Positions 14,672-50,077 of a stretch of DNA of 64,000 nt are shown piece by piece. The DNA lies in the NCBI RefSeq assembly GCF_013127955.1, contig NZ_CP053435.1, positions 3,757,001 to 3,821,000 on the forward strand. The letters run 5' to 3'. Position numbers and translations under genes: made by a program. The first letter of the stretch is position 1; each line of letters begins with the position of its first letter. The notes under the pieces were generated by a model, which was given only the letters and a program-made list of their open reading frames with translations, was not told the DNA's origin and did no database searches. This DNA is from Spirosoma taeanense (GTDB taxonomy: Bacteria; Bacteroidota; Bacteroidia; Cytophagales; Spirosomataceae).

Positions 14672-15832
14672 ATGCGAATTCTGAATATCTGCGCTTACAC
14701 CTGGGAAGCTGGTGGTCCGCCCAAAATTATTTTCGACCACACGCAGGTTGCTCTGCGTTACGGCCATCAGGTAGACATTCTCAGTCCAATCTCCCCCGGC
14801 GAAAAAGCCTATCCGGTTCCGGAAGGCGCCCGATTGATTCTGTGTCAGCGCACGCCCATTATCAGCCGCTTCTTCCGGGAGGTTTCGGGTGATTTGTACC
14901 GCTATCTCCAGAAGCACATTCGCGAATACGACGTCATTCATTGCCACGGTCTATGGCATTTTGGCACCCTGGCTCCGTTTTTGCTCGACCAGACGGTGGC
15001 CAAAGTTATAACGATTCACGGTGTACTGGACCGCTGGGTCTACGCTCACAACAACTGGAAAAAGCAGTTGATCGACACGCTCGCGCAGAAGGCTTTTTTA
15101 CGCCGGGCCGATCTGGTGCAGATCAATAACATCGACGAGCGCGAGGATTTGCTGCGCTACCTGGGCACTCAACATCCCAACGTCGTCATTATCCCAAATG
15201 GCGTTAAGATGAGTGATTTTGCGCGGCTTCCCCCCAAAGGAACCTTCCGTAAAAAATTCAATCTCCCCACCGACCGGAAGCTGGTGCTGTTCATGAGCCG
15301 CCTGAACGTAAAGAAAGGGCTGGATTTGCTCTTACCTGCCTTTCGGGATTACGTTCAGACCCACCCCGACGCCATACTGGCCTTAGCCGGTTCGGACGAT
15401 GGGTATGAAGCCACCACCCGACAGTTTATAGAACAGCACAATCTGGGCGATTCCATACGGATGGTGGGGATGCTCACCGGCGATGATAAGAAAGCCGCCC
15501 TGGCCGATGCCGATTTGTTTACGCTTCCCTCCTACTCGGAAGGATTTTCGATGGCGGTTCTGGAAGCAATGGCGGCCGGAACGCCTGCGCTCGTTTCGGA
15601 TCGGGTGGGCTTCGGCGAAACCATCCGGGCGCACGAAGCGGCTGGTTTGTTGGAGGAGCTTACCCCCGAGGGCGTTCGGGCGGGGCTGGAACAGATGCTC
15701 AGCGATGACAGCCTGCGCCAGCGCGTCAGCCAGAACGCTACGGCGCTCCTTCGGGCGCAGTATGATATTGACGTTGTAGCCAAGCGGCTGCTGGATGAGT
15801 ATCAGAAGGTAGCGAAAACCAACCGAAATTAG
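14672..15832 (+). CDS. Glycosyltransferase family 4
   Basis: This is a 386-residue GT-B enzyme. The N-terminal domain reads ILNICAYTWEAGGPPK, with the glycine-rich acceptor loop. The donor domain shows LFMSRLNVKKGLDLLLPAF and SYSEGFSMAVLEAMAAGTPALVS (about residues 288-310), the E-x7-E signature of GT4. Its stop codon overlaps by 4 bp the stop of the convergent deacetylase gene, so it is the last gene of this + strand run. Confidence 0.9.
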   Translation: MRILNICAYTWEAGGPPKIIFDHTQVALRYGHQVDILSPISPGEKAYPVPEGARLILCQRTPIISRFFREVSGDLYRYLQKHIREYDVIHCHGLWHFGTLAPFLLDQTVAKVITIHGVLDRWVYAHNNWKKQLIDTLAQKAFLRRADLVQINNIDEREDLLRYLGTQHPNVVIIPNGVKMSDFARLPPKGTFRKKFNLPTDRKLVLFMSRLNVKKGLDLLLPAFRDYVQTHPDAILALAGSDDGYEATTRQFIEQHNLGDSIRMVGMLTGDDKKAALADADLFTLPSYSEGFSMAVLEAMAAGTPALVSDRVGFGETIRAHEAAGLLEELTPEGVRAGLEQMLSDDSLRQRVSQNATALLRAQYDIDVVAKRLLDEYQKVAKTNRN

Positions 15833-25708: not shown

Positions 25709-25794
25709 AGCAACCGTTTTACACAGACAATGGTCTTTTAGGATCCATACGTCTGCCTCCTCAAAAGAAGTACTTGTTTAAACAAAAACAAACG

Positions 25795-25875
25795 AGCCGA
25801 TCAGCACCTAGCTAACCGGCTCATTATCAAGTGACCCCGAAGCGATTCGAACGCTTGACCGTCTGCTTAGAAGGC
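25795..25875. repeat. attL: 81-bp copy of tRNA-Arg 3' half plus terminator
   Basis: This segment is 78/81 identical to 37741-37821, with an unbroken 40-bp match at 25836-25875. It contains 44 nt of the tRNA-Arg(UCU) 3' half (complement strand, 25832-25875) and the hairpin terminator that follows that tRNA (25795-25821). It is the displaced original 3' end of the tRNA gene, left behind when the element inserted. Confidence 0.92.
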
Positions 25876-25990
25876 TTACGACTTATTATCTTTATAAATT
25901 ATAACCGGTTGTTATTTTTACTGATAATGAACGAGTTACACAAAAGTACTTTATTATCATTTGTCGTAGGCACAACACTATTTATTATAT

Positions 25991-26033
25991 TTGTTGTACC
26001 TAATGTTGTACCCAAAAATGTTAGGTACAACAA
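25991..26033. promoter_or_regulatory. Integrase arm-type sites near attL, overlapping int start
   Basis: GTTGTACC occurs in direct orientation at 25993-26000 and 26005-26012 (12-bp period) and inverted (GGTACAAC) at 26024-26031, just before the ATG at 26033. The outer pair forms a 13-bp perfect inverted repeat (25991-26003 and 26021-26033). The same tandem pair recurs near attR. These are probably integrase or excisionase arm sites, and could let the protein regulate its own gene. Confidence 0.6.
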
Positions 26034-27400
26034 TGGCTCGTACTACTGAACACAAAGAAGGCAAGGCTACCGTTAGGATAATTTACCGTACAGCCAAAAC
26101 CCTTTCTGACGGATCACACCCATTCTGGGTTCGTATTACCAAAGATCGTAAAACGAAATTTGTTGCTACCGGTCTGAGCTTGGCCCCTAAATACTGGAAT
26201 GACAAGTACACGGGTTTTAAGGAAGCTATCCGAAAGAGCTATCCTGAACCTTATCGGGAAGAACTAATTAAAAAATTAACTAGCTGGGAGAACAAGTATG
26301 CTGATACAGCTGAAGCTTTAGCCAGTGCTGATGAGAAACACGATGCCCGTACCGTAGCCAGCAAAACTATTGAAGGCCGAAAAAGGACCCGTGATGCTAC
26401 CTTATTAGCTTATATTGATGAACTCGTAACGGCTATGATAGCAGCCCGACAAAAGGGAAACAGCATCATTTACCGTGACCTCAAAAACCAGCTTGCCGAC
26501 TTCTTACATAAGTTACACGGTCCTCAAAAAAAAGATGTACCATTCAGTCAGGTGACGGTACGATTCTGCAATCAGCTTGAAACCTTTCTCCGACAACGGG
26601 GCAATAGTGATACGACTTTATCTAATCGTTACCGAACGTTACGAGCCGTATTTAATAAAGCTATTGCAGAAGGTTTAGCTAAGCCTGATCATTACCCCTT
26701 TGCCCGTAATATCTCAGAAAAGCACAAGTTCAGTATTGGCAAGTTTGATACCTCCACTCAAAAACGGGCCATTAGCCGGGACGATATTCGTAAAATTGAA
26801 GCATTTATACCCATTGGAACGGCTACCGGCAAATCGGCTAACCTTAGAAATGCTATTGAAGTTGAACGACTAACATTAGCAAAGTCAGTATTCCTGTTTT
26901 CTTTCTACTGTGGTGGAATCAACTTTGTTGACCTGGCTAAACTCCGTTGGCATAACCTCAGCGTCGACAACGAAAGCAATCACCGGCTGACTTATATCCG
27001 GCAGAAAACAGGTGGCAAGTTCTCCATTCGTTTATTATCCCCTGCTGTTGCCATTATTGAGCAGTACCGGTCTTACACCTACACTAGTCCTGACAACTAC
27101 GTTTTCCCAATCTTAAACACCCAGAAGCATCAAACAGCTACCCAGGTTCATAACCGAACACATAAGGTTTCAGCAATGATCAATGCTGACTTAAAGATTT
27201 TGGGAGAACGAGTCGGTATCAGTACTCCTTTGACGACCTACGTAGCCCGGCATTCATTCGCTACAACCTTACGACAGAAAGGAACAGCTACGGCTGTAAT
27301 CAGTCAGGCTTTGGGTCATAAGACCGAAGCAGTTACCGCCATCTATCTGGATTCGTTCGCATCGGAAACTGTTGATTCGGCTTATGATGCTTTACTATAA
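26033..27400 (+). CDS. int: Tyrosine-type integrase of the tRNA-Arg element
   Basis: This 455-residue tyrosine recombinase (start ATG 26033, MARTTEHKEGK) has an N-terminal arm-binding region (YRTAKTLSDGSHPFWVRI), a SAM-like core-binding domain (about 130-230) and a catalytic domain. Catalytic residues visible are the Lys hairpin (RQKTGG), the R-H pair in ARHSFATTL, His in LGHKTEAV and the nucleophile Tyr in AIYLDSF. The first catalytic Arg box reads GGINFVDL, with no Arg where GxR is usual. It lies directly inside attL and should catalyse integration at tRNA-Arg(UCU). Confidence 0.9.
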   Translation: MARTTEHKEGKATVRIIYRTAKTLSDGSHPFWVRITKDRKTKFVATGLSLAPKYWNDKYTGFKEAIRKSYPEPYREELIKKLTSWENKYADTAEALASADEKHDARTVASKTIEGRKRTRDATLLAYIDELVTAMIAARQKGNSIIYRDLKNQLADFLHKLHGPQKKDVPFSQVTVRFCNQLETFLRQRGNSDTTLSNRYRTLRAVFNKAIAEGLAKPDHYPFARNISEKHKFSIGKFDTSTQKRAISRDDIRKIEAFIPIGTATGKSANLRNAIEVERLTLAKSVFLFSFYCGGINFVDLAKLRWHNLSVDNESNHRLTYIRQKTGGKFSIRLLSPAVAIIEQYRSYTYTSPDNYVFPILNTQKHQTATQVHNRTHKVSAMINADLKILGERVGISTPLTTYVARHSFATTLRQKGTATAVISQALGHKTEAVTAIYLDSFASETVDSAYDALL

Positions 27401-27412
27401 ACTTTTTAGGCC

Positions 27413-28444
27413 ATGACCGCTGAATATGACACTGACAAAAGCCAGCCCGCTTTAATTGTGTTAAGCATAACACAAAAGGTCTTTGACGAAATCCGTCTTC
27501 TTTATACTGTATTCGGTAGTGATCCTTTAAAAGGGATAGATTTACTACGTGATGACCCGACGGCCATACAATACCTAAAGAATGAATATGATAGGCTTGA
27601 ACGCATGAAACAAAATCCACATGAAGGTTCGTGCAGGATTGTGTTTTTAGGCATTCGTCGCCTTCCTGACGGGCCTCGTCCAAATTCTGGGGATGACGTA
27701 CGCCGTTGGTTATATAGTTGCCGAATAGAAAAAGTTTTGCAGTATCAGCTTACCCACTTCCGGAATGAATTAAGACAAGCCCGTAATGAAGTTGAAAAAG
27801 AAAACCGTTCAGTGAGCTTACAGTCCTACCGAAAAACCTTAGATGACTTATGTACACAGCTATCAGCTTTTGAAAGGAAAACAGCCGATCAATTTCCCGA
27901 ATTGAATGAAGCACCTACCGTGAATTGGCCTGAAATTTATGAGCGATTAAATGACTTCATGTTCTTAGTTCGAGATGCCATTGAACAATACATAGGTGAG
28001 ATTAAGCCCTATCTTAAAGATAGTCAGCATAATGACTCAGACACCTCAACGCCAGCGGCTATTGATGATCAAAAGAACAACTTCAACAGTATGGCATTGC
28101 AGGAGGTCAGACAATGGTTTATAAAGTTGGCAGACAACAATAGTAAGAACGGTAAACCATTCCTAACGGCCGAACAGGTTGAGCAGTTTATCGAACGTGC
28201 TTTTGTTGGTAGCGCCAACATACCAAAACTCACCTTTAACATAGCAAAAAGTGAGCGCACATCAGTTACTAAACTATTCTATCTATACTATCAGCGCTGT
28301 ACACAGGATTACGCAGTTGAGTCAACAAAGCACTGTAAACAGAAGTACGTCCAGTTATTGACAGACCATTTTACCAATTATGAGTACAAAACTGTTTTCG
28401 ATACATTTAATAATTCTCAAAACGCTAAGAAGGACTGGAAATAA
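27413..28444 (+). CDS. Unknown protein of the integrative element
   Basis: I do not recognise this 343-residue protein. It follows the integrase after 12 bp and is probably co-transcribed with it. The middle third (about residues 105-220) is charged and helical, likely a coiled coil, and the sequence has no signal peptide or membrane segment. The C-terminal part (about 225-343) contains LFYLYYQRCTQDYAVESTKHC and reads like a compact alpha-helical domain. It may be an element-specific regulatory or maintenance protein, but no function is shown. Confidence 0.75.
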   Translation: MTAEYDTDKSQPALIVLSITQKVFDEIRLLYTVFGSDPLKGIDLLRDDPTAIQYLKNEYDRLERMKQNPHEGSCRIVFLGIRRLPDGPRPNSGDDVRRWLYSCRIEKVLQYQLTHFRNELRQARNEVEKENRSVSLQSYRKTLDDLCTQLSAFERKTADQFPELNEAPTVNWPEIYERLNDFMFLVRDAIEQYIGEIKPYLKDSQHNDSDTSTPAAIDDQKNNFNSMALQEVRQWFIKLADNNSKNGKPFLTAEQVEQFIERAFVGSANIPKLTFNIAKSERTSVTKLFYLYYQRCTQDYAVESTKHCKQKYVQLLTDHFTNYEYKTVFDTFNNSQNAKKDWK

Positions 28445-28489
28445 CTGTTTAACAACTGCTGCTACTTTTTTTCAACTGCTATAACTGCT
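28443..28489. repeat. Four short AACTGYT direct repeats
   Basis: AACTGTT at 28443 and AACTGCT at 28454, 28474 and 28483 lie in the gap before the HTH gene. Start-to-start spacing is 11, 20 and 9 bp, close to whole helical turns. Such iteron-like repeats often bind an excisionase or replication initiator, here perhaps the product of the next gene. Confidence 0.4.
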
Positions 28490-28554
28490 TCTCAAACCCT
28501 ACCTATGCGCCCTACTAGTATTGCTGGAAGTTTCACAAAAACGCCTTACCAGCA

Positions 28555-28851
28555 ATGCAAAAGCAACCTATCACTTTTGACCAACTCCCAGAATATGTTT
28601 ATGAGTTAGGCCGTAAGGTTGACTATCTGACGACCTTATTATCTATCCCTTCCGCCCCCCCCGATGAAACAGGAGGCATTGAATTGGCCCGGCAAGTCAC
28701 CAGACTATCAGCTGCCAGAATTTACACGCTCGTATCACAGCGGGCTATTCCTCACAAGAAACGTGGTAACCGCCTGACGTTTAGACGTTCTGAATTGTTA
28801 GCATGGCTGGATGAGGGCAACCGGGAAACGAAAGGAGGTTTGCCAGCATGA
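28555..28851 (+). CDS. HTH/excisionase-family DNA-binding protein
   Basis: This 98-residue protein contains a winged-helix MerR/excisionase-type HTH_17 domain in its C-terminal half. It reads IELARQVTRLSAARIYTLVSQ, then RAIPHKKRGNRLTFRRSELLAWL. Excisionases of integrative elements use this fold to bend DNA at att sites and favour excision over integration. The N-terminal 45 residues form a helix with the sequence YVYELGRKVDYL. Its last 4 bp overlap the nuclease gene. Four short direct repeats upstream may be its binding sites. Confidence 0.75.
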   Translation: MQKQPITFDQLPEYVYELGRKVDYLTTLLSIPSAPPDETGGIELARQVTRLSAARIYTLVSQRAIPHKKRGNRLTFRRSELLAWLDEGNRETKGGLPA

Positions 28852-29297
28852 ACGCCCTGCAACACCTCAACGCCCTTGCCGATCAGCGCAAGGCTGAACG
28901 AAGCCCTAACTTTCCGGCTAAGCTCATACCCAAAAGCAAATATAATGACCGGGACGCTAACGGCTTAACTACGGCTATAATTGCCTGTATTGAGTTGCAC
29001 GGCGGCTATGCCGTTCGCATCAATACACAAGGCCAATACAATGAGAAGTTGGGACGATGGACTAAAAGTCAGACCCGCAAGGGAACTGCCGATGTTCACG
29101 CCGTTCTGAACGGCCAACACCTCAGTATTGAAGTCAAAGTAAGCAAAGATCGACTAAGCGACGACCAGCGTAAAACCGCTTACCTGGTTGAAAAAGCTGG
29201 GGGACGGTACTACGTTGCCCGTGACTTTGAAGCTTTCTGGCAGTGGTTTACCGCTCAGTTTCTCATCAAATCAAGCGCCTATTCGTCTTGTGCTTAA
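28848..29297 (+). CDS. VRR-NUC-like nuclease
   Basis: This 149-residue protein has a PD-(D/E)XK-type VRR-NUC core. The motif KGTADVHAVLNGQ carries Asp82, and SIEVKVSKDRLSDDQ carries Glu95 and Lys97, in the usual spacing. The LHGGYAVRINTQGQ segment upstream forms the first strand-helix unit. Phages and mobile elements carry such small nucleases, probably to process replication or recombination intermediates. The gene overlaps the HTH gene by 4 bp, so both are translated from one transcript. Confidence 0.78.
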   Translation: MNALQHLNALADQRKAERSPNFPAKLIPKSKYNDRDANGLTTAIIACIELHGGYAVRINTQGQYNEKLGRWTKSQTRKGTADVHAVLNGQHLSIEVKVSKDRLSDDQRKTAYLVEKAGGRYYVARDFEAFWQWFTAQFLIKSSAYSSCA

Positions 29298-29311
29298 TCC
29301 AATTAAACGAA

Positions 29312-29342
29312 AACCGCTTTCGGGTTGCAGCCGAAAGCGGTT
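29312..29342 (+). terminator. Hairpin after nuclease gene
   Basis: A 12-bp perfect stem (29312-29323 with 29331-29342) has a 7-nt loop and lies 15 nt after the nuclease stop codon and 15 nt before the helicase start. No long T tract follows, so it could be a weak terminator or attenuator separating the two parts of the operon. Confidence 0.5.
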
Positions 29343-29356
29343 AACTCCCTATTACT

Positions 29357-30832
29357 ATGAGTAAAGCACCCAAAAATACAATCACAGTAGCTGGTTTACA
29401 AGACGCTATCAATGCTGATGCCCAACGCTTAAAACAGAACGCCTTTGTTTATCAAACGCACGATCAGGTTATGCAAATCCTGCTTTTGCAAGTCCTAAAG
29501 GTTGACTTTCGAGAATTAGCCGAATTGCCCCCCGACAATGAGGACGCCAAACTAAAGAAAGAACACTACATAGTGATTACCGTCGAACAGGTACTCGAAC
29601 TAGCCCAACGGAATCAATGGGGTCTTTGTCGCCGGGATGCCTTTTTCTACGCCTACAATGGAGCCTTCTGGAAAACGATTGATAAAGACGACCTAAAGGC
29701 GTTTTTGCGAAAGGCAGCCGAACGAATGGGCATTGACAAGTTTAAAGCCCGCTATGTGGAATTTTCTAAAAGCTTATTCGAGCAATTTACCGAAACAGCT
29801 TACTTACCCGCCCCAGTGGCTGACCGCACTATTGTTAAGATCAATTTGACCAACGGAACCTTTGACATCAGCACAGAAAGTCAGGACTTGCGCGCTCCGG
29901 ATCCGGCTGACTTTCTGACGCATCAACTCCCATTTGCTTATGACCCTACTGCTAAGGCCCCACTATTTGAGCAGTTTCTAAACCGAGTGCAGCCCGACCT
30001 GGACTGCCAAAAAATTCTGGCTGAATATATTGGTTACCTGTTCGTTTCACCGGTCAAACTCAAGCTGGAAAAGACCTTATTGCTGTATGGTTCGGGAGCC
30101 AATGGAAAGTCTGTTTTCTTCGAGATCGTTACCGCGTTGTTAGGTTCGGACAACGTTAGCCACTATTCTTTGCAATCACTGACCGAGGAAAAAGGCTATC
30201 ACCGGGCGAACCTGGCTAATAAGTTAGTCAACTATGCCAGTGAGATCAGCGGTAAGCTGGAAGCTAATTTATTCAAGCAACTTGTTTCAGGCGAACCGAT
30301 AGAAGCCCGTTTACCGTATGGGCAACCCTTCATCCTGAAGGACTACGCCAAACTGATTTTTAACTGTAACGAGCTACCCGCCGATGTGGAACACACCCCG
30401 GCTTACTTTCGTCGGTTCCTGATTGTACCTTTTGGCGTCACCATTCTTGAAGCGGAGCAAGACAAACAACTAGCCGCTAAAATCATACAAGCCGAATTAT
30501 CGGGCGTCTTTAATTGGGTGTTGGATGGGTTACGCCGTTTATTAGCGCAAGGACGGTTTACCGACAGTGAAGCGGTACGGGGGCAAGTTGAAGCCTACAA
30601 ACGTCAATCTGATACGGTACGGGTGTTTCTGGATGAGCACGACTATCAAGCCCATACCGACTACTCAACCCCGTTGAAAGAGCTGTATCGAGAGTATAAG
30701 GCGTTTTGTTCGGAAGACAACTACCGCCCAGTGAATAGCCGCAACTTCAAGAAACGGCTGGACAGCTACGGCTTTCATATCATCCGAAAAACTGGGGGAT
30801 GGGTCGTTTATGTGACAAGGACGACTTTTTAA
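29357..30832 (+). CDS. SF3/D5-type DNA helicase (P4 alpha-like ATPase)
   Basis: This 491-residue protein is a superfamily 3 helicase of the phage/plasmid primase family. Walker A is GSGANGKS (residues 245-252). LFKQLVSGEPIEARLPYG marks the motif B' region. KLIFNCNELP is sensor motif C, and AYFRRFLIVPF holds the Arg finger. The D5_N domain precedes the ATPase (about 150-235). A C-terminal winged-helix-like segment (about 430-485) may bind the origin. The N-terminal primase part typical of P4 alpha is missing. The Zn-ribbon/Toprim-like protein encoded next may supply it. Confidence 0.87.
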   Translation: MSKAPKNTITVAGLQDAINADAQRLKQNAFVYQTHDQVMQILLLQVLKVDFRELAELPPDNEDAKLKKEHYIVITVEQVLELAQRNQWGLCRRDAFFYAYNGAFWKTIDKDDLKAFLRKAAERMGIDKFKARYVEFSKSLFEQFTETAYLPAPVADRTIVKINLTNGTFDISTESQDLRAPDPADFLTHQLPFAYDPTAKAPLFEQFLNRVQPDLDCQKILAEYIGYLFVSPVKLKLEKTLLLYGSGANGKSVFFEIVTALLGSDNVSHYSLQSLTEEKGYHRANLANKLVNYASEISGKLEANLFKQLVSGEPIEARLPYGQPFILKDYAKLIFNCNELPADVEHTPAYFRRFLIVPFGVTILEAEQDKQLAAKIIQAELSGVFNWVLDGLRRLLAQGRFTDSEAVRGQVEAYKRQSDTVRVFLDEHDYQAHTDYSTPLKELYREYKAFCSEDNYRPVNSRNFKKRLDSYGFHIIRKTGGWVVYVTRTTF

Positions 30833-30856
30833 AAATTGTTATTCCTCCTACATTAC

Positions 30857-30916
30857 CTGCATTTGCTACATTGTCCTGCCGGTTATCAGCGGCCTCTATT
30901 CATGTAGCAAATGCAG
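30857..30916. repeat. 14-bp inverted repeat between helicase and primase-like genes
   Basis: CTGCATTTGCTACA at 30857-30870 and its exact complement at 30903-30916 are separated by 32 nt. Similarity extends outward (CTACA..TT and TGTAGC copies), so each arm carries two related half-sites. The repeats lie in the 121-bp gap between the two replication genes. They could be origin iterons or a repressor site. Confidence 0.5.
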
Positions 30917-30953
30917 AATGTGTAGCTGCAAACAAACTATTATTTTTATACCA

Positions 30954-32159
30954 ATGGCCGCTACTGCTTATCGCTATCAACTCCCGAAGAAATCCATCAA
31001 AGGTGACTGTCCCCAGTGCGGGCCCAAGCACCGCAAGACGCTGAGCCGGTACGTCGATACGCAGACGGGTGAACCCTTACCCGACATCTATGGGTGTTGC
31101 GACCGGGAAAGTAATTGCGGCTATCACCTCAACCCTTACCACAAAGGCCCGTCTGGCCTCTCCTACCATGATGAGGTGAAAGCCCGTTACAGCGTTGGAC
31201 CGATTCCTAAAGCCTGGTTTAAACAGGGGGCTAAGCAGAAGCGGAACGGCCTATCCAAACAGGGCATTATAACGGGTTTGATTCAAATGGAAGGCGCAAC
31301 CCTTGAGCAAGCTGAGCGAGTAGCTTCATTTCTGTTTGATAAGCCATCTTCCCGGTCGGCTAAAGTAGCGACAACCAGCCCACAAGACCAGGTGTACACC
31401 ATACCCGATGAGGTATTTGAGCAGTCGTTGGGTCACTACGACCGGAATCAGTTTGCCTATCTGCTTCGGCGGCATTTTGGCGTTAGTGTAGCCGATGAGC
31501 TGTTAAAGCAGTTTCAGATTGGTACGTCGGGGCGTTGGCCGGGGGCTTGTGTATTCTGGTATATTGATGAGCAGAGCCGAATACGCGGGGGACAGATCAA
31601 GCTGTTTGATGATACGTTTCATACGGTTAAGTACGTGGTCAAAAACGGCGAAAAACGCAGCCGAACCAGTTGGGTGCATTCGGCTTATGCCCGGCGTTGC
31701 GATCAGCTCAAACAGCCTTACCCGGCCTGGCTGACGGCTTATCTGGATGAGCGGAATGAGGTACAAAAGTCACCTTGTCTGTTCGGCTTGCCGCAACTAC
31801 TTACCGCTCCGGTAGATCAGCCGGTAGCGATTGTCGAAGCCCCTAAAACAGCCGTGATCAGTACGCCGTATTTTCCCGGCTTTATCTGGCTGGCAGTAGG
31901 GGCGTTGTCTTACCTCAACGCCGAACGGTTGGCTCCGGTACGCGGCCGAAAGATCGAGCTGTTCCCTGACCTGTCGAAGGATGGAAAGGCCTTTGAGCGA
32001 TGGAACCAAGTAGCCGCTGAGTTGATAGGACAGGGCTTTCAAATTACGGTATCAGCCTACCTGGAAGACAACGCCACCGCTGAGGAAAAAGCCGCCGGTT
32101 TGGACTTGGCTGATTTCTTACTGGAGCAATGGCGTGAGTACCCACCCGAATGGGATTAA
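30954..32159 (+). CDS. DUF6371 protein with zinc ribbon and Toprim-like region (primase candidate)
   Basis: I start this 401-residue protein at ATG 30954 (MAATAYRYQLPKK). Near the N-terminus C19-P-Q-C22 and C48/C49 with C55 form a zinc-ribbon-like cluster, as in DnaG-type primases. The middle contains YVVKNGEKRSRTSWVHS and FGLPQLL. The C-terminal half has VAIVEAPKTAVIST (with a Toprim-like Glu) and LFPDLSKDGKAFERW (with a DxxxD-like acidic pair). This is the DUF6371 layout, common next to SF3 helicases on Bacteroidetes elements. Primase activity is inferred from fold and neighbour, not shown. Confidence 0.75.
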   Translation: MAATAYRYQLPKKSIKGDCPQCGPKHRKTLSRYVDTQTGEPLPDIYGCCDRESNCGYHLNPYHKGPSGLSYHDEVKARYSVGPIPKAWFKQGAKQKRNGLSKQGIITGLIQMEGATLEQAERVASFLFDKPSSRSAKVATTSPQDQVYTIPDEVFEQSLGHYDRNQFAYLLRRHFGVSVADELLKQFQIGTSGRWPGACVFWYIDEQSRIRGGQIKLFDDTFHTVKYVVKNGEKRSRTSWVHSAYARRCDQLKQPYPAWLTAYLDERNEVQKSPCLFGLPQLLTAPVDQPVAIVEAPKTAVISTPYFPGFIWLAVGALSYLNAERLAPVRGRKIELFPDLSKDGKAFERWNQVAAELIGQGFQITVSAYLEDNATAEEKAAGLDLADFLLEQWREYPPEWD

Positions 32160-32176
32160 GGCAAGGAAAGAAATGG

Positions 32177-32225
32177 CGGAACGGTTGCAGTCTTATCTCA
32201 GATGCTAAAGATTGCAACCGTTCCG
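32177..32225. terminator. Convergent intergenic hairpin
   Basis: Arms of 18 bp (32177-32194 and 32208-32225) pair with one G-T wobble around a 13-nt loop. It lies 17 nt after the primase-like stop codon and 57 nt before the convergent AbiGi-like stop, so it can end both transcripts. It has no T tract. Confidence 0.55.
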
Positions 32226-32282
32226 TAAGATGAAGTAGTTAAGACATAATCAGACAAATTAATAGTAAATATACTATCCTGA

Positions 32283-33122
32283 TTAAAAGTCTTCTTTTAT
32301 CTGTTTACAAGTAACTATTGTTGTAGTTAAATATTGAATGTCGTTAGTTGAAAATTTTTTTGGAAATCTTGAACTAATATTTTGTAATCCTTTTATAAAC
32401 CAGTCAATCTCATTACTATTATCTAATATAATATACTTAACATCCTTAGCTTTGAATGTAAGGGACTTACTCACTAACCTTTCATTAAAATTTTGAATAT
32501 CATTAGCTATATTCTCAAACAATATCAAAAACTCACTTAATATAATGTTTGTTAAAGGCGGAACATACCTCCACTCTTTTTCATTATAATATTTATATTC
32601 TGGATACTTTTTCCTATAAGCTCCTTTTGACATATAGGGCTTTAAAAATGATAAAATAGCATAAGTTAGTTTCGCTTTTTCGTAGGAATTATCAGACTTT
32701 TTAACACTATCAATAATAGACTTGACCGATGGCCTATGTCCATGTTCAAGCATAAATTCCTCAACAAACAATGACCGGCTCAGAAGAACTAAGTCATTTA
32801 CGTTTTTACGATATGTACTGATAACACTAGCTTTAGTTTGTAGATAATTAACTGGGTTCAATCCCTTATTCTGCCCCCATTTTCTAGATAGCCCTATCCC
32901 ATAATGGTCATAAATATCTAAGTGGTTTTCAACACTTGAAAGGGGAATGTCACAAAAACAAACCATTGGAATATAAATATCCTTAATATCTGTGAAATAG
33001 TCAGGATCAACCTCAGGTGTAAATTCGCGACTGTATCTTGGAAAGAAACCATTCTCTATTATATTTAATAGAAACTCTTTTTTTGTGAAGTGGAATAATG
33101 TATTTGCACTTAATAATGCCAT
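32283..33122 (-). CDS. AbiGi-like abortive-infection protein
   Basis: This 279-residue protein resembles the AbiGi family of abortive phage-resistance proteins. The block VCFCDIPLSSVENHLDIYDHYGIGLSRKWG (30 residues; short key pieces are CFCDIPLS and YGIGLSRKWG) is the family's core, and NEKEWRYVP is the second conserved motif. Its reaction is not established; the Lactococcus AbiG pair acts together with a partner protein AbiGii. The gene is very A/T-rich compared with its neighbours, suggesting recent transfer. It lies 26 bp downstream of the type IIG-like gene in the same orientation and is probably co-transcribed with it. Confidence 0.65.
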   Translation of the reverse strand: MALLSANTLFHFTKKEFLLNIIENGFFPRYSREFTPEVDPDYFTDIKDIYIPMVCFCDIPLSSVENHLDIYDHYGIGLSRKWGQNKGLNPVNYLQTKASVISTYRKNVNDLVLLSRSLFVEEFMLEHGHRPSVKSIIDSVKKSDNSYEKAKLTYAILSFLKPYMSKGAYRKKYPEYKYYNEKEWRYVPPLTNIILSEFLILFENIANDIQNFNERLVSKSLTFKAKDVKYIILDNSNEIDWFIKGLQNISSRFPKKFSTNDIQYLTTTIVTCKQIKEDF

Positions 33123-33148
33123 AGTCTTAATTATTTGTTAGTTCCTGA

Positions 33149-36100
33149 TTACTCAACAATCGCAATCTCCTCATCTGTCAGCCCATACAGGGCGTAAACC
33201 AACCGGTCTACTTCAGCTTCTAACGCTGAAGTATCGGCGATTGGATCGGTAGCTTTGGCGGTCATTATTCTGTCAGCTACTACTTCTAAACTGTAACGCT
33301 GTGCTTCGGTCATTGCAGGAATAGGTATTTGTTCAAGATATTGCCGAATAAACCTTAGATATCCCCCCCTAATGGATGAGGTAATACTAGCATAGAAATA
33401 CAAAACAACACTTGAGTTTAAAATAGCTAACAAGCTTTTATCGTCGCTAGCAATAATATAAGCAGTGTTCACACTATATGAGCCAGTTTCGTCGTGAATA
33501 ACTTGGTTCTTAACGGCAATATCCGGCAGCATTAGTTTCGGCTTCTCAAATTCTTTATAGTAATCAACTGCATCCTGTATTTCATACCATTTGTACGTTC
33601 CCGCCTTACGGCCTTTCCAGTCACCTTTCCAGTCTTTAGGACAAGGCATTAGTCGTTCTTTGAATTGTTCCAAGTGTCTTAAAATCGCCGGGTAATATTC
33701 AATGTTAATGCCCCGCCGAGTAAAGATCAGGTGCTTATCCACCTTTGGCGTTTGATACCGCTTAATGTCCCTTCCAGCCAGAAATGGCTTTATTACGTTA
33801 GCACTACGAGGGTCTTCTGCAATTAACCTGTCTTTCGTCGCTGCATCAATTACAAACGCTTCATTAAGTCCGGTCTTTATGCCGTAATAGATTTTCCCTT
33901 CTACGTATTCGCCGAGTGGCATGCCGCCTTTTCTGAGCTTCGCCATGAGCCGCTGAACGGCTACGTTGGTTAGTTGCCAACCCTCATCCTGTAAACTTTC
34001 GGTTTCTACTTCAAAACGATTTGTCTGAATGTAAGCCGCCAGGCCATCGGCGTATTGCAGTGTATCTACCAATGCCACCTGGAACCGTTCAACGGCCATA
34101 GCCTTCTGAATGCTTAGGATACTTGGATAAGTGGTTGCTTCATCAAAAATGGGCAAGTCCCCAAAGTCAACAATCTGCTCAATTGCCAACGTTTTTAGCC
34201 ATCTACGCAGGCTTACCCCATAACCCGCCCTCATCCATTTATTCGGGATAATAAAGACGAACTGACCATTAGGCCGCAGAATCCGTAAGCCATGTTCAAC
34301 AAACATGACGTAAAGATCAGCCGTACCTGCGTAGGTTTTTGGAAAGTCCTTTTTCAAAAGCGTCTTGGATTCGCCTAACTCCTCCTGTCGGATATACGGC
34401 GGGTTGCCGATCACAGCATCAAAGCCTACAAAGTCACCTTTATCGTCCAATACTTCCGGGAACTCGAACCGCCATTCAAACGATCCCCGATATAGGGCGT
34501 TGTTTTCAATACTGGAAATTTCGGTTTCTACCTGTTCAATGAGCTTGTCGTACCGTTTCTTCTCAAAGGCGATTACCTTCGGATCCTTGACAGTCTCGAA
34601 AATACTTAGCTCACTATCCAGAAGTATGCGTTCCCCCCGTAGCTTGGACAGTCTCGCCCGGCGCGGGTCGCGGTTAAAGACGGTTTCGCGAAACTGGCTT
34701 TTGATTTCATTGATGAACCGCAACAGATCAGCTTTGGCGTCTTTGCTTCTGGCTTCTTTGTAGGCTTTTACGGCATCCTTGTACGTGCGTAGGCTGAACT
34801 TCTGCTTGCGGAATACCTCGCTGAGGTCTTCTGTCAAACTAAACTTACTGAGCAGGCTATTTCCCTGTTTGATGTTGATGTCAATGTTAGGCAAAGTTTC
34901 CAGTTCACTAAAGCCTGATTCGTCGGTGTAGTAGGCATTCTTCAGCAGCTCAATCCACAGCCGTAAGCGGCAAATCTTCACCGAGTTGGGGTTGATGTCC
35001 ACCCCGAACAAACAGTTTTCAATGATGGTCTGCTTTTCGCGGAACAAGGTCTTTTGCACCCGCTGGCGTTCAGGCGTTGGTTTGCCCGTCGCTTGCAGCA
35101 CATAGCTAAAGGGTTCGTCGTCCTCATCTTGTACCACCAACTCATCATTCAGAATGCTGACCTGATAGCCTTTTAGCCGCTTGCCGCTGTCATCCTGCAA
35201 CAGCTTCAGGTCGGATTTAATGGCAATCAGCTCATTGAGGCCCGATACCAGAAAGTGCCCCGAACCAACCGCCGGGTCACAGATGCGGATTTCGTTGATC
35301 AGGGCGTTGGCCTCATCCCGGTCAAGGTCTTTGTCTTCCAGGGCTTCAAAGTCCTTACAGTTCCAGCCTTTCGCATCGTTGAACTTCTGCACCACCGCTT
35401 TGCGAATGGCTTCCCGGCACATATACTCGGTAATGAAGCCCGGCGTATAGAATGACCCATCTTTGTAGCCGTTGATCTTCTCAAAGATCAGCCCCAGCAC
35501 ACTGGCGTTGATCAGGGTACGGTTCTTCTCCTGAATGTCTTCCCGGCTTTCGGACGAAAAATCATAGGCGTCCAGAAACGCAAACAGATAGGAAAGCGTC
35601 CCTAAATCTTTGGCGTCCCGATAAGCTGAATTGTCCTTTAGGACGCTATTACGCAGAACGGGTAAGGTCAGACTGTTATCTAACTGGCTGACGGGTAAGG
35701 TATCGTTTTCTAGCTCAGTCAGCTCGAATAGCGAACTGTTGAGGTAGGGAATACGCCCGAACTTGGCCTGAATGGATACCTGCCGTTCGGACGGTTTACG
35801 AGCCAACACCCGAAAGAACAGCTTGTTTAGTTCATCAAAATCGGGTATGGTTTCCCCGTTCAAGAAAGCGTAATCCCTGTTACCGTTGTGATACTTGACT
35901 AACTGCGATTCCAGTAGCTTTAGGAACAAGACCCGGTTAACCCAGGTAATGCACAGTTCCAGGGCTACGCTGAACAGTTGTTCGTCAGTTGTGGCCCCGT
36001 ACTGGCTCCGGTCGTGAAGCTGATAGAACTTGCCCGATGTGTCCAGCTCAATAAGGGTGTTTTCCAGTAGTGACCCCTCATCCCGCTTACCCGCTTCTTT

Positions 36101-36922
36101 ACGCCGGATCACCTTCTTACCGCCTTCCTTGACTTCTTCCAGGCCGATCAGGTGCAACAGCTCCGAATAGAACTTTGGATTGAGCCGATTGCTGTCGGTA
36201 GCCGCTGGCAGCTTCAGCAGGTGCGTCGGTGACAGAATCTTATAGAGCGACAGCAGGGCTTTGTCATTGGCCTTGTCGGCATCGGCTACAATGGTCTGAT
36301 AGTCGCGTAGGTCGAAATAGGTAAACGTGATTTCGTCGGTCAGCTCCGCCAGAAACGGCTTGACAATCTCATTATAGAACAGGTCATTGTTTTTGCTCAC
36401 TTTCTGCCCCGCTGCCCAGGCTTTGTATTCTTTGGTCAGATGGGCATTGCGGTAGAACAGCCGGTCAATCAGGGCCGCGTCAAAGATGAACCACTCATAA
36501 ACGTTCGTAATGACACAATGGCGAATGTCGCTGTTCTTGGCCCGCTGGCGTTCCTGAAAGTAGTACAGCAGCAGTTCGTGAAAGGCTTTGGTGTTGAGGT
36601 TCTGGCGGGTCACCATTTCGCCCTTGTTGAGTGGCCGCTTGACCTCAAACAGCACCCCGGCGGGTGTAGTGGCGTCTTTGCCTAAGTGAATGACAAAATC
36701 GGTTTTGCCTTTTGGCGCAACCACGTAAGCCTCCTTGTAATAGACTTCTTTTAAGAAGTCCATCAAGTGATCCTTAACGTTCTCCTCACTTTCCTTTTCG
36801 TTAATGTGGCTCAGCAGCCGGATAAACTGCGCTTTGAACTGCTCAATCTGTTCGCGGTTACCGGGTTGTAGATTATAGGTTGGATCAAGGGATTTAGCGG
36901 GTTTGCGGATAGTAAGCAGCAT
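33149..36922 (-). CDS. Type IIG-like restriction-modification enzyme (Eco57I-type)
   Basis: This 1257-residue single-chain enzyme starts best at ATG 36922 (MLLTIRKPAK); the open frame continues 18 codons upstream. The N-terminal domain has a PD-(D/E)XK nuclease site, Asp75 (KTDFVIHL) and Glu93-Val-Lys95 (LFEVKRP). The central Eco57I-type N6-adenine methyltransferase has motif I (DPAVGSGHFL, near residue 550) and motif IV (GNPPYI, near 840). The C-terminal part (about 1000-1240) is a TaqI-like target-recognition region. It would cut unmodified DNA and methylate host DNA. No separate specificity or BREX gene lies nearby. Confidence 0.85.
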   Translation of the reverse strand: MLLTIRKPAKSLDPTYNLQPGNREQIEQFKAQFIRLLSHINEKESEENVKDHLMDFLKEVYYKEAYVVAPKGKTDFVIHLGKDATTPAGVLFEVKRPLNKGEMVTRQNLNTKAFHELLLYYFQERQRAKNSDIRHCVITNVYEWFIFDAALIDRLFYRNAHLTKEYKAWAAGQKVSKNNDLFYNEIVKPFLAELTDEITFTYFDLRDYQTIVADADKANDKALLSLYKILSPTHLLKLPAATDSNRLNPKFYSELLHLIGLEEVKEGGKKVIRRKEAGKRDEGSLLENTLIELDTSGKFYQLHDRSQYGATTDEQLFSVALELCITWVNRVLFLKLLESQLVKYHNGNRDYAFLNGETIPDFDELNKLFFRVLARKPSERQVSIQAKFGRIPYLNSSLFELTELENDTLPVSQLDNSLTLPVLRNSVLKDNSAYRDAKDLGTLSYLFAFLDAYDFSSESREDIQEKNRTLINASVLGLIFEKINGYKDGSFYTPGFITEYMCREAIRKAVVQKFNDAKGWNCKDFEALEDKDLDRDEANALINEIRICDPAVGSGHFLVSGLNELIAIKSDLKLLQDDSGKRLKGYQVSILNDELVVQDEDDEPFSYVLQATGKPTPERQRVQKTLFREKQTIIENCLFGVDINPNSVKICRLRLWIELLKNAYYTDESGFSELETLPNIDINIKQGNSLLSKFSLTEDLSEVFRKQKFSLRTYKDAVKAYKEARSKDAKADLLRFINEIKSQFRETVFNRDPRRARLSKLRGERILLDSELSIFETVKDPKVIAFEKKRYDKLIEQVETEISSIENNALYRGSFEWRFEFPEVLDDKGDFVGFDAVIGNPPYIRQEELGESKTLLKKDFPKTYAGTADLYVMFVEHGLRILRPNGQFVFIIPNKWMRAGYGVSLRRWLKTLAIEQIVDFGDLPIFDEATTYPSILSIQKAMAVERFQVALVDTLQYADGLAAYIQTNRFEVETESLQDEGWQLTNVAVQRLMAKLRKGGMPLGEYVEGKIYYGIKTGLNEAFVIDAATKDRLIAEDPRSANVIKPFLAGRDIKRYQTPKVDKHLIFTRRGINIEYYPAILRHLEQFKERLMPCPKDWKGDWKGRKAGTYKWYEIQDAVDYYKEFEKPKLMLPDIAVKNQVIHDETGSYSVNTAYIIASDDKSLLAILNSSVVLYFYASITSSIRGGYLRFIRQYLEQIPIPAMTEAQRYSLEVVADRIMTAKATDPIADTSALEAEVDRLVYALYGLTDEEIAIVE

Positions 36923-37082
36923 TCTATTTTGTATCTTTAAAGGGCGTTCAAGTAACGTAAAAAACGTTCTATCCACAAACGAAGGAAGGGAAATTCAATA
37001 AGCGGTCATTGTCTTACATTCAGTGATACCGTTGAGAACTTCCCTAAAGATTTAGGCTATAACCGTGTTTTCAACTGTCACT

Positions 37083-37694
37083 ATGCCACGAACACCCACG
37101 TTCCGATGGAATTACAATGATCTAAGAACGCTAACAATGGCCGATCTTAAACGGATGAAACTGCTAATAGGCTGGGCCTCGACTGTTATAACGTGGAGGA
37201 ACAATAGCGATGAAGTACGAGCTGCTATTGAAGTAACCGTCAATTTGAACTGCCTATATCCAGGCGACTATATTGAGTTGAAATACAGGGCAAGGGAGGA
37301 GTTAATAAATTATAAAATTCAGCTAGTGCAGGTTGCAAGCAATCTGGGTAAGAAAGGAGGAATCTGGTATTTCATCTGCCCCAGCACTGGAAAACGATGC
37401 CGTACCTTATATTCGGATGGTAGGTACTTTGTTAGTCGCCATGCTTTTAAAGGAACACTGTATGAAAGTCAGACTTATTCAAAAACGTATCGTTCAATAG
37501 CAAGCATGTATGGACCAATCTATAAGGTTAGGGAAGCTTTCGATGAATTAAAAAAGCCCTATGCCAAAACATTTTACCGAGGCAAGCTTACACCTAAAGC
37601 CCGGAAATTATTCAAGTGGCAGCAACTTTATAATGTGAAGCATGATATAGAGTTAAGAAGTATTGAAGATTATCTACTTAGTACCGTATCGTAA
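37083..37694 (+). CDS. Unknown protein of the integrative element
   Basis: I do not recognise this protein. ATG 37083 gives 203 residues; a GTG start six codons earlier is possible. The central segment GIWYFICPSTGKRCRTLY-SDGRYF, then SRHAFKGTLYESQ, resembles a conserved 'WYFICP...LY...F.CR.C..L.Y.SQ' pattern of small mobile-element proteins. In that family this region is a zinc ribbon, but here the second Cys pair is replaced (SRHAF). The rest is basic, consistent with nucleic-acid binding. It lies between the restriction gene and attR, transcribed divergently from the restriction gene. Confidence 0.7.
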   Translation: MPRTPTFRWNYNDLRTLTMADLKRMKLLIGWASTVITWRNNSDEVRAAIEVTVNLNCLYPGDYIELKYRAREELINYKIQLVQVASNLGKKGGIWYFICPSTGKRCRTLYSDGRYFVSRHAFKGTLYESQTYSKTYRSIASMYGPIYKVREAFDELKKPYAKTFYRGKLTPKARKLFKWQQLYNVKHDIELRSIEDYLLSTVS

Positions 37695-37706
37695 GTTGGC
37701 TTATAA

Positions 37707-37728
37707 TTGTTGTACCTAGTGTTGTACC
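37707..37728. promoter_or_regulatory. Tandem arm-type sites near attR
   Basis: GTTGTACC occurs at 37709-37716 and again at 37721-37728, a 12-bp period. Within a 22-bp block it differs by one base from 25991-26012 near the integrase. It lies 49 nt from the tRNA-Arg 3' end. It probably binds integrase or excisionase at this end of the element. Confidence 0.6.
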
Positions 37729-37740
37729 TAACAACAAAAA

Positions 37741-37767
37741 AGCCGATTAGCACTTAGCTAACCGGCT
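37741..37767 (-). terminator. tRNA-Arg terminator (element-borne)
   Basis: On the minus strand an 11-bp stem with one wobble and a 5-nt loop is followed by a T tract (TTTTTGTTG). It sits 10 nt after the 3' end of tRNA-Arg. The copy in attL has the same stem with two wobbles, so both sides of the integration keep a terminator. Confidence 0.8.
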
Positions 37768-37821
37768 CATTATCAAGTGATCCCGAAGCGATTCGAACGC
37801 TTGACCGTCTGCTTAGAAGGC
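37741..37821. repeat. attR: 81-bp repeat overlapping tRNA-Arg
   Basis: This is the right copy of the 81-bp repeat at 25795-25875, 78/81 identical with a 40-bp exact core (37782-37821). The 3' half of the tRNA in this copy came from the element and rebuilds the gene. It also brings a terminator (37741-37767) for the tRNA on the minus strand. Confidence 0.92.
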
Positions 37822-37851
37822 AGATGCTCTATCCAGCTGAGCTACGGGACC
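37778..37851 (-). tRNA. tRNA-Arg (UCU), integration target
   Basis: This 74-nt tRNA folds cleanly. The acceptor stem GGTCCCG pairs with CGGGATC with one G-U. The D-arm is GCTC..GAGC. The anticodon stem TCTGC/GCAGA has loop CTTCTAA, hence anticodon UCU. The T-arm is AAGCG-TTCGAAT-CGCTT, and the discriminator is A. No CCA is encoded. Positions 37778-37821 derive from the integrated element; the 5' part is chromosomal. Confidence 0.95.
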
Positions 37852-49258: not shown

Positions 49259-50077
49259 ATGAACAAAGTAGCGCTGGTAACCGGAGCCTCTTCCGGGATG
49301 GGCGAATCGACCGCCATACTATTGAGCCAACAAGGGTATAAAGTGTATGGCGCAGCCCGAAGAACGAACGAAATGAAACCGCTGGAAAGCCAGGGTATTT
49401 CGGTTGTTTCGTTAGACCTCACGCAAGACGAATCAATCGTCAACTGCGTCAACACCATTTTGGGCCAGGAAGGCCGAATTGACGTATTAATCAACAATGC
49501 CGGTTATGGCTCATACGGGGCGGTTGAAGATGTGCCCATTGAGGAAGCCCGCCGGCAATTTGAGGTGAATATATTCGGACTGGCCCGGTTAACGCAATTG
49601 GTTTTGCCCACGATGCGCGAGCAAAAATCAGGTCGAATCATCAACATATCGTCCATGGGGGGCAAGATCTATACGCCCTACGGTGCCTGGTATCATGCCA
49701 CCAAACATGCCCTGGAAGGCTGGTCCGACTGCCTGCGACTGGAAGTAAAGCCATTCGGCATTGACGTCGTGGTCGTTGAACCAGGGGGCGTTAAAACAGC
49801 CTGGGGAGTCATTGCCGCCGAAGGCTTGAAAAAAGTATCGGGCCGCGGAGCGTATGCCGAAGGCGCAACAAAAGCAGCCGATAGTATGGCCAATATGTAT
49901 GCAACCGGAAAAAACCTGACCGATCAGGACGTACTGGCCAAAGAAATCGTGAAAGCAGCCACTACGTCGAAACCGAACACAAGGTACGTAAAAGGGTTTA
50001 TGGCCAAACCCATGATTCTGATGCGTCAATGGCTGGGTGACCGGGCATTCGACAAGATCATTACGAGCGCAGCTTAA
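49259..50077 (+). CDS. Short-chain dehydrogenase/reductase (SDR)
   Basis: This 272-residue classical SDR has the NAD(P) motif TGASSGMG at residues 8-15, NNAG in VLINNAGYGSYG, Ser in ISSMGG, and the catalytic Tyr-x3-Lys in WYHATKHALEG. It is cytosolic. The AARRT after the first strand suggests NADP preference. The substrate is unknown; the palindromic sites just upstream suggest regulated expression. Confidence 0.92.
   Translation: MNKVALVTGASSGMGESTAILLSQQGYKVYGAARRTNEMKPLESQGISVVSLDLTQDESIVNCVNTILGQEGRIDVLINNAGYGSYGAVEDVPIEEARRQFEVNIFGLARLTQLVLPTMREQKSGRIINISSMGGKIYTPYGAWYHATKHALEGWSDCLRLEVKPFGIDVVVVEPGGVKTAWGVIAAEGLKKVSGRGAYAEGATKAADSMANMYATGKNLTDQDVLAKEIVKAATTSKPNTRYVKGFMAKPMILMRQWLGDRAFDKIITSAA

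Follow-up and report, generated by a model that had tools for sequence, protein, structure and literature searches.

Phage satellites of several kinds offer points of comparison for the locus described here. Satellite P4 integrates at a tRNA gene, replicates by means of a superfamily 3 (SF3) helicase/primase, the alpha primase-helicase, carries the sid, psu and delta genes and uses the cos site of P2, while a terminase small subunit is typical of the phage-inducible chromosomal islands (PICI). P4-like satellites hold a hotspot of anti-phage genes (PMC9122126), and the immune genes of PICI lie in accessory regions, one of them next to pri (PMC11364771). The phage-inducible chromosomal minimalist islands (PICMI) of Vibrionaceae are modelled on an integrase (PF00589), an AlpA protein (PF12728), a DUF5906/DUF3987 protein and Fis (PF02954) (PMC10803314), and PLE11, a PICI-like element (PLE) parasitizing the Vibrio cholerae phage ICP1, supplies its own tape measure protein (TMP), chaperone and hub and forms chimeric tails (PMC12987554). 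Here we analyse a stretch of 64,000 nucleotides from Spirosoma taeanense (NZ_CP053435.1, positions 3,757,001 to 3,821,000; the whole stretch is called the window), in which an element of 11,946 bp (25876-37821) is integrated at a tRNA-Arg gene. We consider it likely to be a PICI/PICMI-like phage satellite belonging to a widespread Bacteroidota family, in which the slot after the primase gene is best read as holding either a defence cassette (AbiGi and a type IIG enzyme in this copy) or a partial packaging and tail kit.

The element is flanked by attachment repeats and combines integrase, regulator and replication genes without a virion gene set, a combination expected of a satellite. With P4 it shares tRNA integration, genes for replication by an SF3 helicase and a probable primase, and anti-phage cargo; however, no sid (capsid-sizing), psu or delta family was matched in the window, and the helicase and the probable primase are separate genes. 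The likeness to PICI lies in the integrase, the regulator, the replication module and the immune genes (PMC11364771), as well as in the terminase small subunit of some relatives, whereas the window copy has no matched terminase small subunit. Like PICMI, the element is small and holds an integrase, an AlpA-type helix-turn-helix (HTH) protein and a DUF5906-type replication gene, so that Pfam recognises three of the four genes of the model (PF00589, PF12728, PF19263). Fis (PF02954) was not matched in the nine proteins at E <= 0.1, which places the element outside that model; moreover, PICMI hosts belong to another phylum, and DUF6371 does not appear in the sections of the PICMI description available to us (PMC10803314).

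The ends of the element are well defined. The 81-bp direct repeat made of tRNA-Arg(UCU) sequence, reported by an earlier sequence-only reading of this DNA, was recovered exactly (25795-25875 against 37741-37821, 78 of 81 positions identical) and extends further to 86 of 92 positions, and its copies are the only two matches at E <= 0.001 in the 5.72-Mb genome. Because ARAGORN finds a single intact tRNA-Arg(TCT), the right repeat completes this tRNA and the left copy is its displaced 3' part. That reading had placed the start of the element at 25836, which falls inside the left repeat; the start after the crossover is 25876. Pairs of TTGTACC spaced by 12 bp, absent from the account of the sequence-only reading, lie just inside both ends and form part of a 34-nt direct repeat (D3), 88% identical between left and right, that would provide the arm sites of the integrase. 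The GC content of the element (45%) is set against 53% and 52% in the flanks.

Nine open reading frames (ORFs), all of them open, follow in the order integrase, ORF2, HTH_17, VRR-NUC, SF3 helicase, Zn_ribbon_16/DUF6371, AbiGi, type IIG and ORFX, the AbiGi and IIG genes being on the strand opposite to the other genes (Table 1). The integrase probably starts downstream of the listed TTG. Integrase, HTH_17, VRR_NUC, D5_N/DUF5906, Zn_ribbon_16/DUF6371, AbiGi and IIG stand above Pfam cut-offs or give strong PADLOC matches, in agreement with the gene list of the sequence-only reading, whose two unknown genes are orphans. Its further statement that packaging, structural and transfer genes are absent was borne out, since none of these families matched in the nine proteins (nine each searched with Pfam and PHROGs, eight with PADLOC; E <= 0.1). 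AbiGii had no match among the proteins scanned. Of the five proteins similar to ORF2 in other loci, one is a duplicate; the ORF2 slot is frequently occupied in relatives by very variable sequences, and no Pfam family is common to more than one of the 34 slot proteins scanned.

Table 1. Coordinates of the genes, attachment repeats and putative integrase sites of the element (window positions).
Feature	Position	Strand	Evidence
Left attachment repeat: displaced tRNA-Arg 3' part and downstream sequence	25784..25875		86/92 (core 78/81) against 37730-37821
Left arm-type sites	25985..26030		TGTACC at 25995 and 26007 (TTGTACC pair); inverted GGTACA at 26024
Tyrosine integrase (Arm-DNA-bind_5, SAM_5, Phage_integrase)	25991..27400	+	Pfam E 9.7e-14, 6.2e-21, 4.1e-14
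ORF2, orphan of 343 aa between integrase and HTH	27413..28444	+	no Pfam match
HTH_17 protein, AlpA/excisionase-like	28555..28851	+	PF12728 33.7 bits (cut-off 27); phrog_66 excisionase/regulator 2.1e-3
VRR-NUC nuclease	28848..29297	+	PF08774 27.4 bits (cut-off 23.8)
SF3-type replicative helicase (D5_N, DUF5906)	29357..30832	+	Pfam 3.1e-13, 8.7e-20; phrog_864 'DNA primase' 3e-84
Zn_ribbon_16 and DUF6371 protein, directly 3' of helicase	30918..32159	+	Pfam 2.5e-20, 2.4e-45
AbiGi-like abortive-infection protein, cargo	32283..33122	-	PF10899 7.9e-27; PADLOC AbiGi 3.2e-46
Type IIG restriction-methylase, cargo	33149..36976	-	PADLOC REase_MTase_IIG 9e-285
ORFX, conserved orphan at distal end	37065..37694	+	82 bp from tRNA
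Right arm-type sites	37701..37734		TGTACC at 37711 and 37723 (TTGTACC pair), repeat D3
Right attachment repeat, supplies 3' part of intact tRNA	37730..37821		86/92 against left repeat
Intact tRNA-Arg(TCT), integration target	37777..37851	-	ARAGORN

The helicase and DUF6371 genes constitute the core by which relatives can be traced. A scan of genome contigs with an alignment of 26 helicase sequences confirmed 380 stretches, the best 80 of which were read (seven of these are duplicate loci from the host-family genomes). Spirosoma, Larkinella, Rudanella, Hymenobacter, Flavobacterium, Maribacter, Polaribacter, Chitinophaga and Alistipes are represented among these best 80 of 380, together with others and a few gammaproteobacterial loci, including one of Legionella longbeachae. 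DUF6371 lies directly 3' of the helicase in 70 of the 77 evaluable loci (80 fetched), mostly from Bacteroidota, and, among the 26 host-family loci with a helicase, it comes next in 17 and not in nine. Within the host family, 71 of 222 genomes carry relatives of DUF6371 and 30 of 222 relatives of the helicase, this genome being included in both counts. An upstream integrase, a variable gene in the ORF2 slot and small HTH-type genes also recur. The element thus belongs to a widespread and seemingly undescribed Bacteroidota family of small mobile elements; no report of Bacteroidota phage satellites figures among the literature matches listed, a set with few subscription papers and therefore weak evidence of novelty.

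The sequence-only reading had labelled the zinc-ribbon protein 'Toprim-like', a label without profile support: Pfam names DUF6371, and a search of PDB profiles gave one meaningless match, which leaves a Toprim fold without a counterpart among solved structures. The position of its slot, its conserved zinc ribbon and the primase genes found in the same slot elsewhere suggest that the DUF6371 protein is a probable primase. The slot holds a PriCT_2 primase in locus L103 and a weakly primase-like gene in L077, and DNA primase families were matched by 3 of 55 cargo proteins in an alignment-wide scan. Such scans covered 55 and 73 cargo proteins (73 of the 170 listed) and give the first 25 families without naming their members, so that rarer structural families could be missed. 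Locus L103, a faecal record with 51% helicase identity, contains in addition eight genes on the opposite strand, including one for an OmpA/TPR protein, and may be host DNA.

Defined ends were also sought at the related loci, and the gene pair was found at other tRNA genes with direct repeats. Repeats overlapping a tRNA gene occur in 13 of the 80 loci (Met, Arg, Thr, Asn, Lys, Leu, Ala and Phe) in a survey whose reach on the right side of the helicase was about 10 kb at most and which had no shuffle control; seven of the 13 measure at least 46 bp and several others are short, those of 15-20 bp (L127, L174, L184, L185) being weak. The tRNA-Arg repeats of L131 and L165 end within 1-5 bases of the end point of the window repeat. 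Among 40 family loci, tRNA repeats were found in L063 (Asn, 47 bp), L064 (Leu, 18 bp), L074 (Thr, 21/23) and L079 (Glu, 93 bp), and L065 has a tRNA-like repeat of 34 bp. Targeting of tRNA genes is common in the family and not universal, since L075, L098 and L099 have non-tRNA repeats and no repeat was found at most loci.

Relatives of the SF3 helicase and of the integrase are also found in phages, and the element could on that account be a decayed prophage that kept its integrase and replication genes and gained a defence cassette. We regard this as very improbable, given that the nine ORFs are all open, that the compact block is kept at 35-73% helicase identity and that prophages decaying separately at many tRNA genes are unlikely to have arrived at the same layout.

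ORFX, at the distal end, delimits a slot whose content varies. In the first fetched loci, 20 of its 22 relatives lie directly after DUF6371 or another primase-slot gene, or one ORF away, and 22 of the 222 host-family genomes carry it, this one included. A tRNA gene stands 78-184 bp beyond the 3' end of 9 of 36 ORFX genes (the window's among them), as against 10 of 414 other ORFs of at least 150 aa from the same loci with a tRNA gene within 250 bp. Several kb of other genes separate DUF6371 from ORFX in L297-L299 and L304, and homologues of the window's IIG enzyme lie after DUF6371 or near ORFX (75% identical in L068; 77% in L307, adjoining ORFX; 61% in L305, with an ORF of 68 aa between). The window's defence cassette therefore occupies a recurrent cargo slot. 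As for other defence-type cargo, L068 has an abortive-infection protein beside its IIG enzyme, L063 a type I-like methylase protein and L065 a helicase/methylase/AAA set, and a GajB-like UvrD helicase occurs in two elements, one of them L075. The fold of ORFX is well predicted by AlphaFold (pLDDT, its confidence score, 83), and it has no structural match in PDB or BFVD at E <= 0.001. Just beyond ORFX, two loci (L296 in genome G186 and L302 in G211) show a tape-measure gene followed by a gene of about 270 aa; the two tape measures are 67% identical over 627 aa, and that of L296 lies behind a second integrase.

Genes that would exploit a helper phage were not matched in the window; relatives that have them are L064, L074, L176 and L190 (a circle), together with L071 and L078, where they lie at the edge of a contig. 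The genes after DUF6371 in L064 (Rudanella) encode first a terminase small subunit (2.6e-49), which matches annotated phage terminase small subunits, then a protein of 1044 aa that weakly resembles tape measures (3.2e-6) and one of 675 aa. A tape measure of 1558 aa (6.3e-166) lies inside the tRNA-Thr repeats of L074 and matches annotated tape measures of Riemerella and Bacteroides phages, and further tape measures lie downstream in L071 and L078, where no element ends were seen. Inside the 67-bp tRNA-Asn repeats of L176, from Legionella longbeachae NCTC11477, there is a terminase small subunit (3.2e-36); this 10-kb element with a helicase relative stands outside the Bacteroidota. The 170-224 aa genes that follow DUF6371 in L063, L111, L143 and L189 resemble terminase small subunits only at E >= 3e-4 and were not counted, that of L170 has no such match, and a phrog_1482 match in the genome of L117, beyond the end of the contig of L117, was not counted either.

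The 675-aa protein has relatives in L111, L289 and two IMG/VR contigs, in one of which it adjoins a relative of the 1044-aa protein. Profile comparison aligned it with the protein encoded just behind the tape measure gene of two prophages (probability 68, E 4.9e-5; the best of 120 random decoys reached 5.7), the template having been chosen after a scan of 45 candidates (best E 2.5e-4) and the aligned region differing between two runs. This is suggestive, and only suggestive, of a tail-hub protein; an AlphaFold model was useless (pLDDT 38). Some relatives thus carry a tape measure and one also a probable hub, as PLE11 does; the window copy lacks these tail genes. Satellites with a tape measure are no novelty as such, since putative tmp genes have already been reported in PLE-like elements and capsid-forming PICI (cf-PICI) (PMC12987554).

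These genes occur among close kin of the element. In a midpoint-rooted FastTree phylogeny of the helicase, which leaves out fragments of at most 400 aa (L068 and L078 among them) and the seven duplicates, the window groups with L063, L064, L065, L066, L067, L071, L074 and L111 (support 0.989). This clade contains the strong terminase small subunit of L064 and the strong tape measures of L071 and L074, together with weak terminase-like genes in L065 and L111, the latter with a relative in L063; in L066 and L067 no terminase or tape-measure gene was seen in the part of the cargo scanned. Such kinship bears on the idea that the element is a tRNA-integrating island resembling tycheposons, moving by natural transformation, vesicles or generalised transduction without a dedicated helper. 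Integrase, helicase and cargo in the window without any matched transfer gene, and a genome without a recognised helper prophage, would suit such an island; the terminase small subunit and tail genes of the relatives make sense with a helper phage, and we judge the idea improbable.

A circular relative adds to this picture. L190 (IMGVR_UViG_3300024510_000176) is an IMG/VR contig of 4734 bases with a terminal repeat of 125 bases, and its helicase crosses the contig ends (residues 167-484 at the start, 1-207 at the end), which establishes a circle of about 4.6 kb. It encodes the helicase, DUF6371, a 195-aa protein and a 154-aa protein, the last of which is similar to the Flavobacterium phage 1/32 terminase small subunit (35%, 1e-16) and to a hypothetical PJN03 phage protein (9e-19). 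L190 is possibly a minimal, non-integrating relative, and a circle with a terminase-like gene slightly raises our confidence in the satellite reading. As close helicase relatives are common in genomes and rare in IMG/VR, virus finders seem to miss this family. A single-protein scan of IMG/VR found no DUF6371, though L190 holds one; the scan reaches close relatives only.

The sequence-only reading had left two options, a candidate new satellite or a mobilizable family. The first gains support from the tRNA repeats and the terminase and tape-measure genes of relatives, and the second loses ground, as no PF03432 relaxase lies in the element ranges fetched from 27 host-family genomes. Under it, the element would be a relaxase-less integrative mobilisable element, integrating and replicating like the non-replicating Bacteroides units (NBU) and transferred by conjugation through an origin of transfer used by the relaxase of another element. 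The window copy does lack a phage-specific gene, and DUF6371 stands beside DUF3987-type and Mob_Pre or Relaxase genes in L104 and L106, so that this probable primase is shared with relaxase-bearing elements. These two records (MT836828, MT836643) are human faecal contigs deposited as bacteriophage; they carry integrase-like genes and resemble NBU-type mobilisable elements. The DUF6371 homologue and the integrase-like genes are what they share with the window, whereas they combine DUF3987-type genes with a relaxase and the window has an SF3 helicase and no relaxase family matched by Pfam in its nine proteins.

PF03432 occurs in 17 of 27 host-family genomes tested and in none of the element ranges fetched from them; in one of these genomes, G186, a relaxase lies on the same contig, 3.5 Mb away. 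Another 49 genomes include 17 with PF03432, never at a position that could be placed in an element, although not every contig could be tied to a locus. The window genome (G000) has no PF03432 anywhere, and BLAST with two relaxases labelled none in 80 loci. As the same helicase clade also holds terminase small subunit or tape-measure genes, we find a mobilisable element unlikely. Structural genes in closely related copies, which the sequence-only reading had named as evidence against its proposal, were seen in the form of a few packaging and tail genes, while no large terminase (phrog_2) was found in the element ranges of 11 genomes; this combination fits satellites. Large terminase, portal and capsid, searched as a prophage set, were likewise not matched among the nine window proteins.

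Several observations weigh against a satellite. Pfam, PHROGs and PADLOC recognise no terminase small subunit, tape measure, capsid or other hijacking gene in the window copy. The search for a resident helper was negative: neither PF20155 nor phrog_309 matched anything in the window genome, and the large terminase profile phrog_2 gave one weak match (3.2e-5), about 0.97 Mb away, over a profile range that is also weakly matched in ten related genomes tested. Neither an empty site nor an excised circle of the element was seen; the check for empty sites that the sequence-only reading had suggested led to full-length homologues (62%) of the left-flank kinase in two same-genus genomes, at loci without tRNA-Arg. 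Close relatives are rare in IMG/VR (L190 has 60% helicase identity, the others among the best 80 listed at most 37%), L190 has no integrase among its ORFs of at least 60 aa, and DUF6371 also occurs in the human faecal contigs with relaxases. Weighing both sides, we conclude that the element is genuinely integrated and belongs to a widespread family; its members are most probably phage satellites, and this copy may spread as they would.

As a phage satellite, the element may be pictured as follows. The integrase would recombine a circular form of 11.9 kb into the 3' part of tRNA-Arg(UCU), where the observed repeats lie, and the element would supply the replacement 3' end of the gene. Upon infection by a helper, excision and expression would be under the control of the AlpA-like HTH protein. 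The freed circle would be copied by the SF3 helicase together with the zinc-ribbon/DUF6371 primase and packaged into helper-phage particles. The terminase small subunit, tape measure and probable tail-hub genes present in relatives would serve this packaging; the window copy would depend on a helper machinery that recognises its DNA, or on ORFX or ORF2. The swappable defence cassette between primase and ORFX would protect the host, and hence the satellite, from other phages.

A more ambitious synthesis is possible, and we offer it tentatively. The family would span the phylum, with a post-primase slot alternating between a defence cassette and a partial virion kit of terminase small subunit, tape measure and tail-hub. 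Kit-bearing members would redirect packaging and build chimeric tails, as a mirror image of the capsid-forming PICI and in parallel to PLE, while members of the window type would have host defence in place of the kit. ORFX, which in many cases directly precedes the tRNA, would be a family-specific transfer or excision factor, and L190 a stripped, circular and non-integrating member.

The Bacteroidota are a major bacterial phylum in the gut, in soil, in fresh water and in the sea, and the recognisable core, defined ends and tRNA targets of these elements would allow search models to be built for the family. If our reading is true, it would account for the movement of AbiGi, type IIG enzymes and other defence genes between Bacteroidota. 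The relatives with their own tape measures would also allow asking whether the remodelling of tails by satellites evolved more than once.

On other aspects, the window DUF6371 nests within a clade of solitary chromosomal copies (support 0.973, further out 0.996, inner nodes weak), which points to a history different from that of the helicase, through exchange with a solitary chromosomal copy. Solitary DUF6371 genes, 73-81% identical to that of the window, were found at 12 loci (L083-L094) from ten same-genus genomes and two genomes of other genera of the host family; the 13.6-20 kb fetched around them contain nothing labelled as a relative of the helicase or the integrase. Four of these loci share a conserved neighbour gene of about 220 aa, whose product looks like an arginyl-tRNA-protein transferase. 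Two satellite-like islands with other replication genes, L286 (G158:C28) and L289 (G134:C16), were also noted; one has a tape measure of 1411 aa that closely resembles the L074 protein, the other a terminase small subunit and a 675-aa-type protein. Finally, equal-scoring pairs of terminase small subunit and tape measure genes lie near the start of contig G164:C1 (1937-2506 with 15320-15715, and 49440-50009 with 62825-63220), about 47.5 kb apart, and perhaps represent two tandem prophages.

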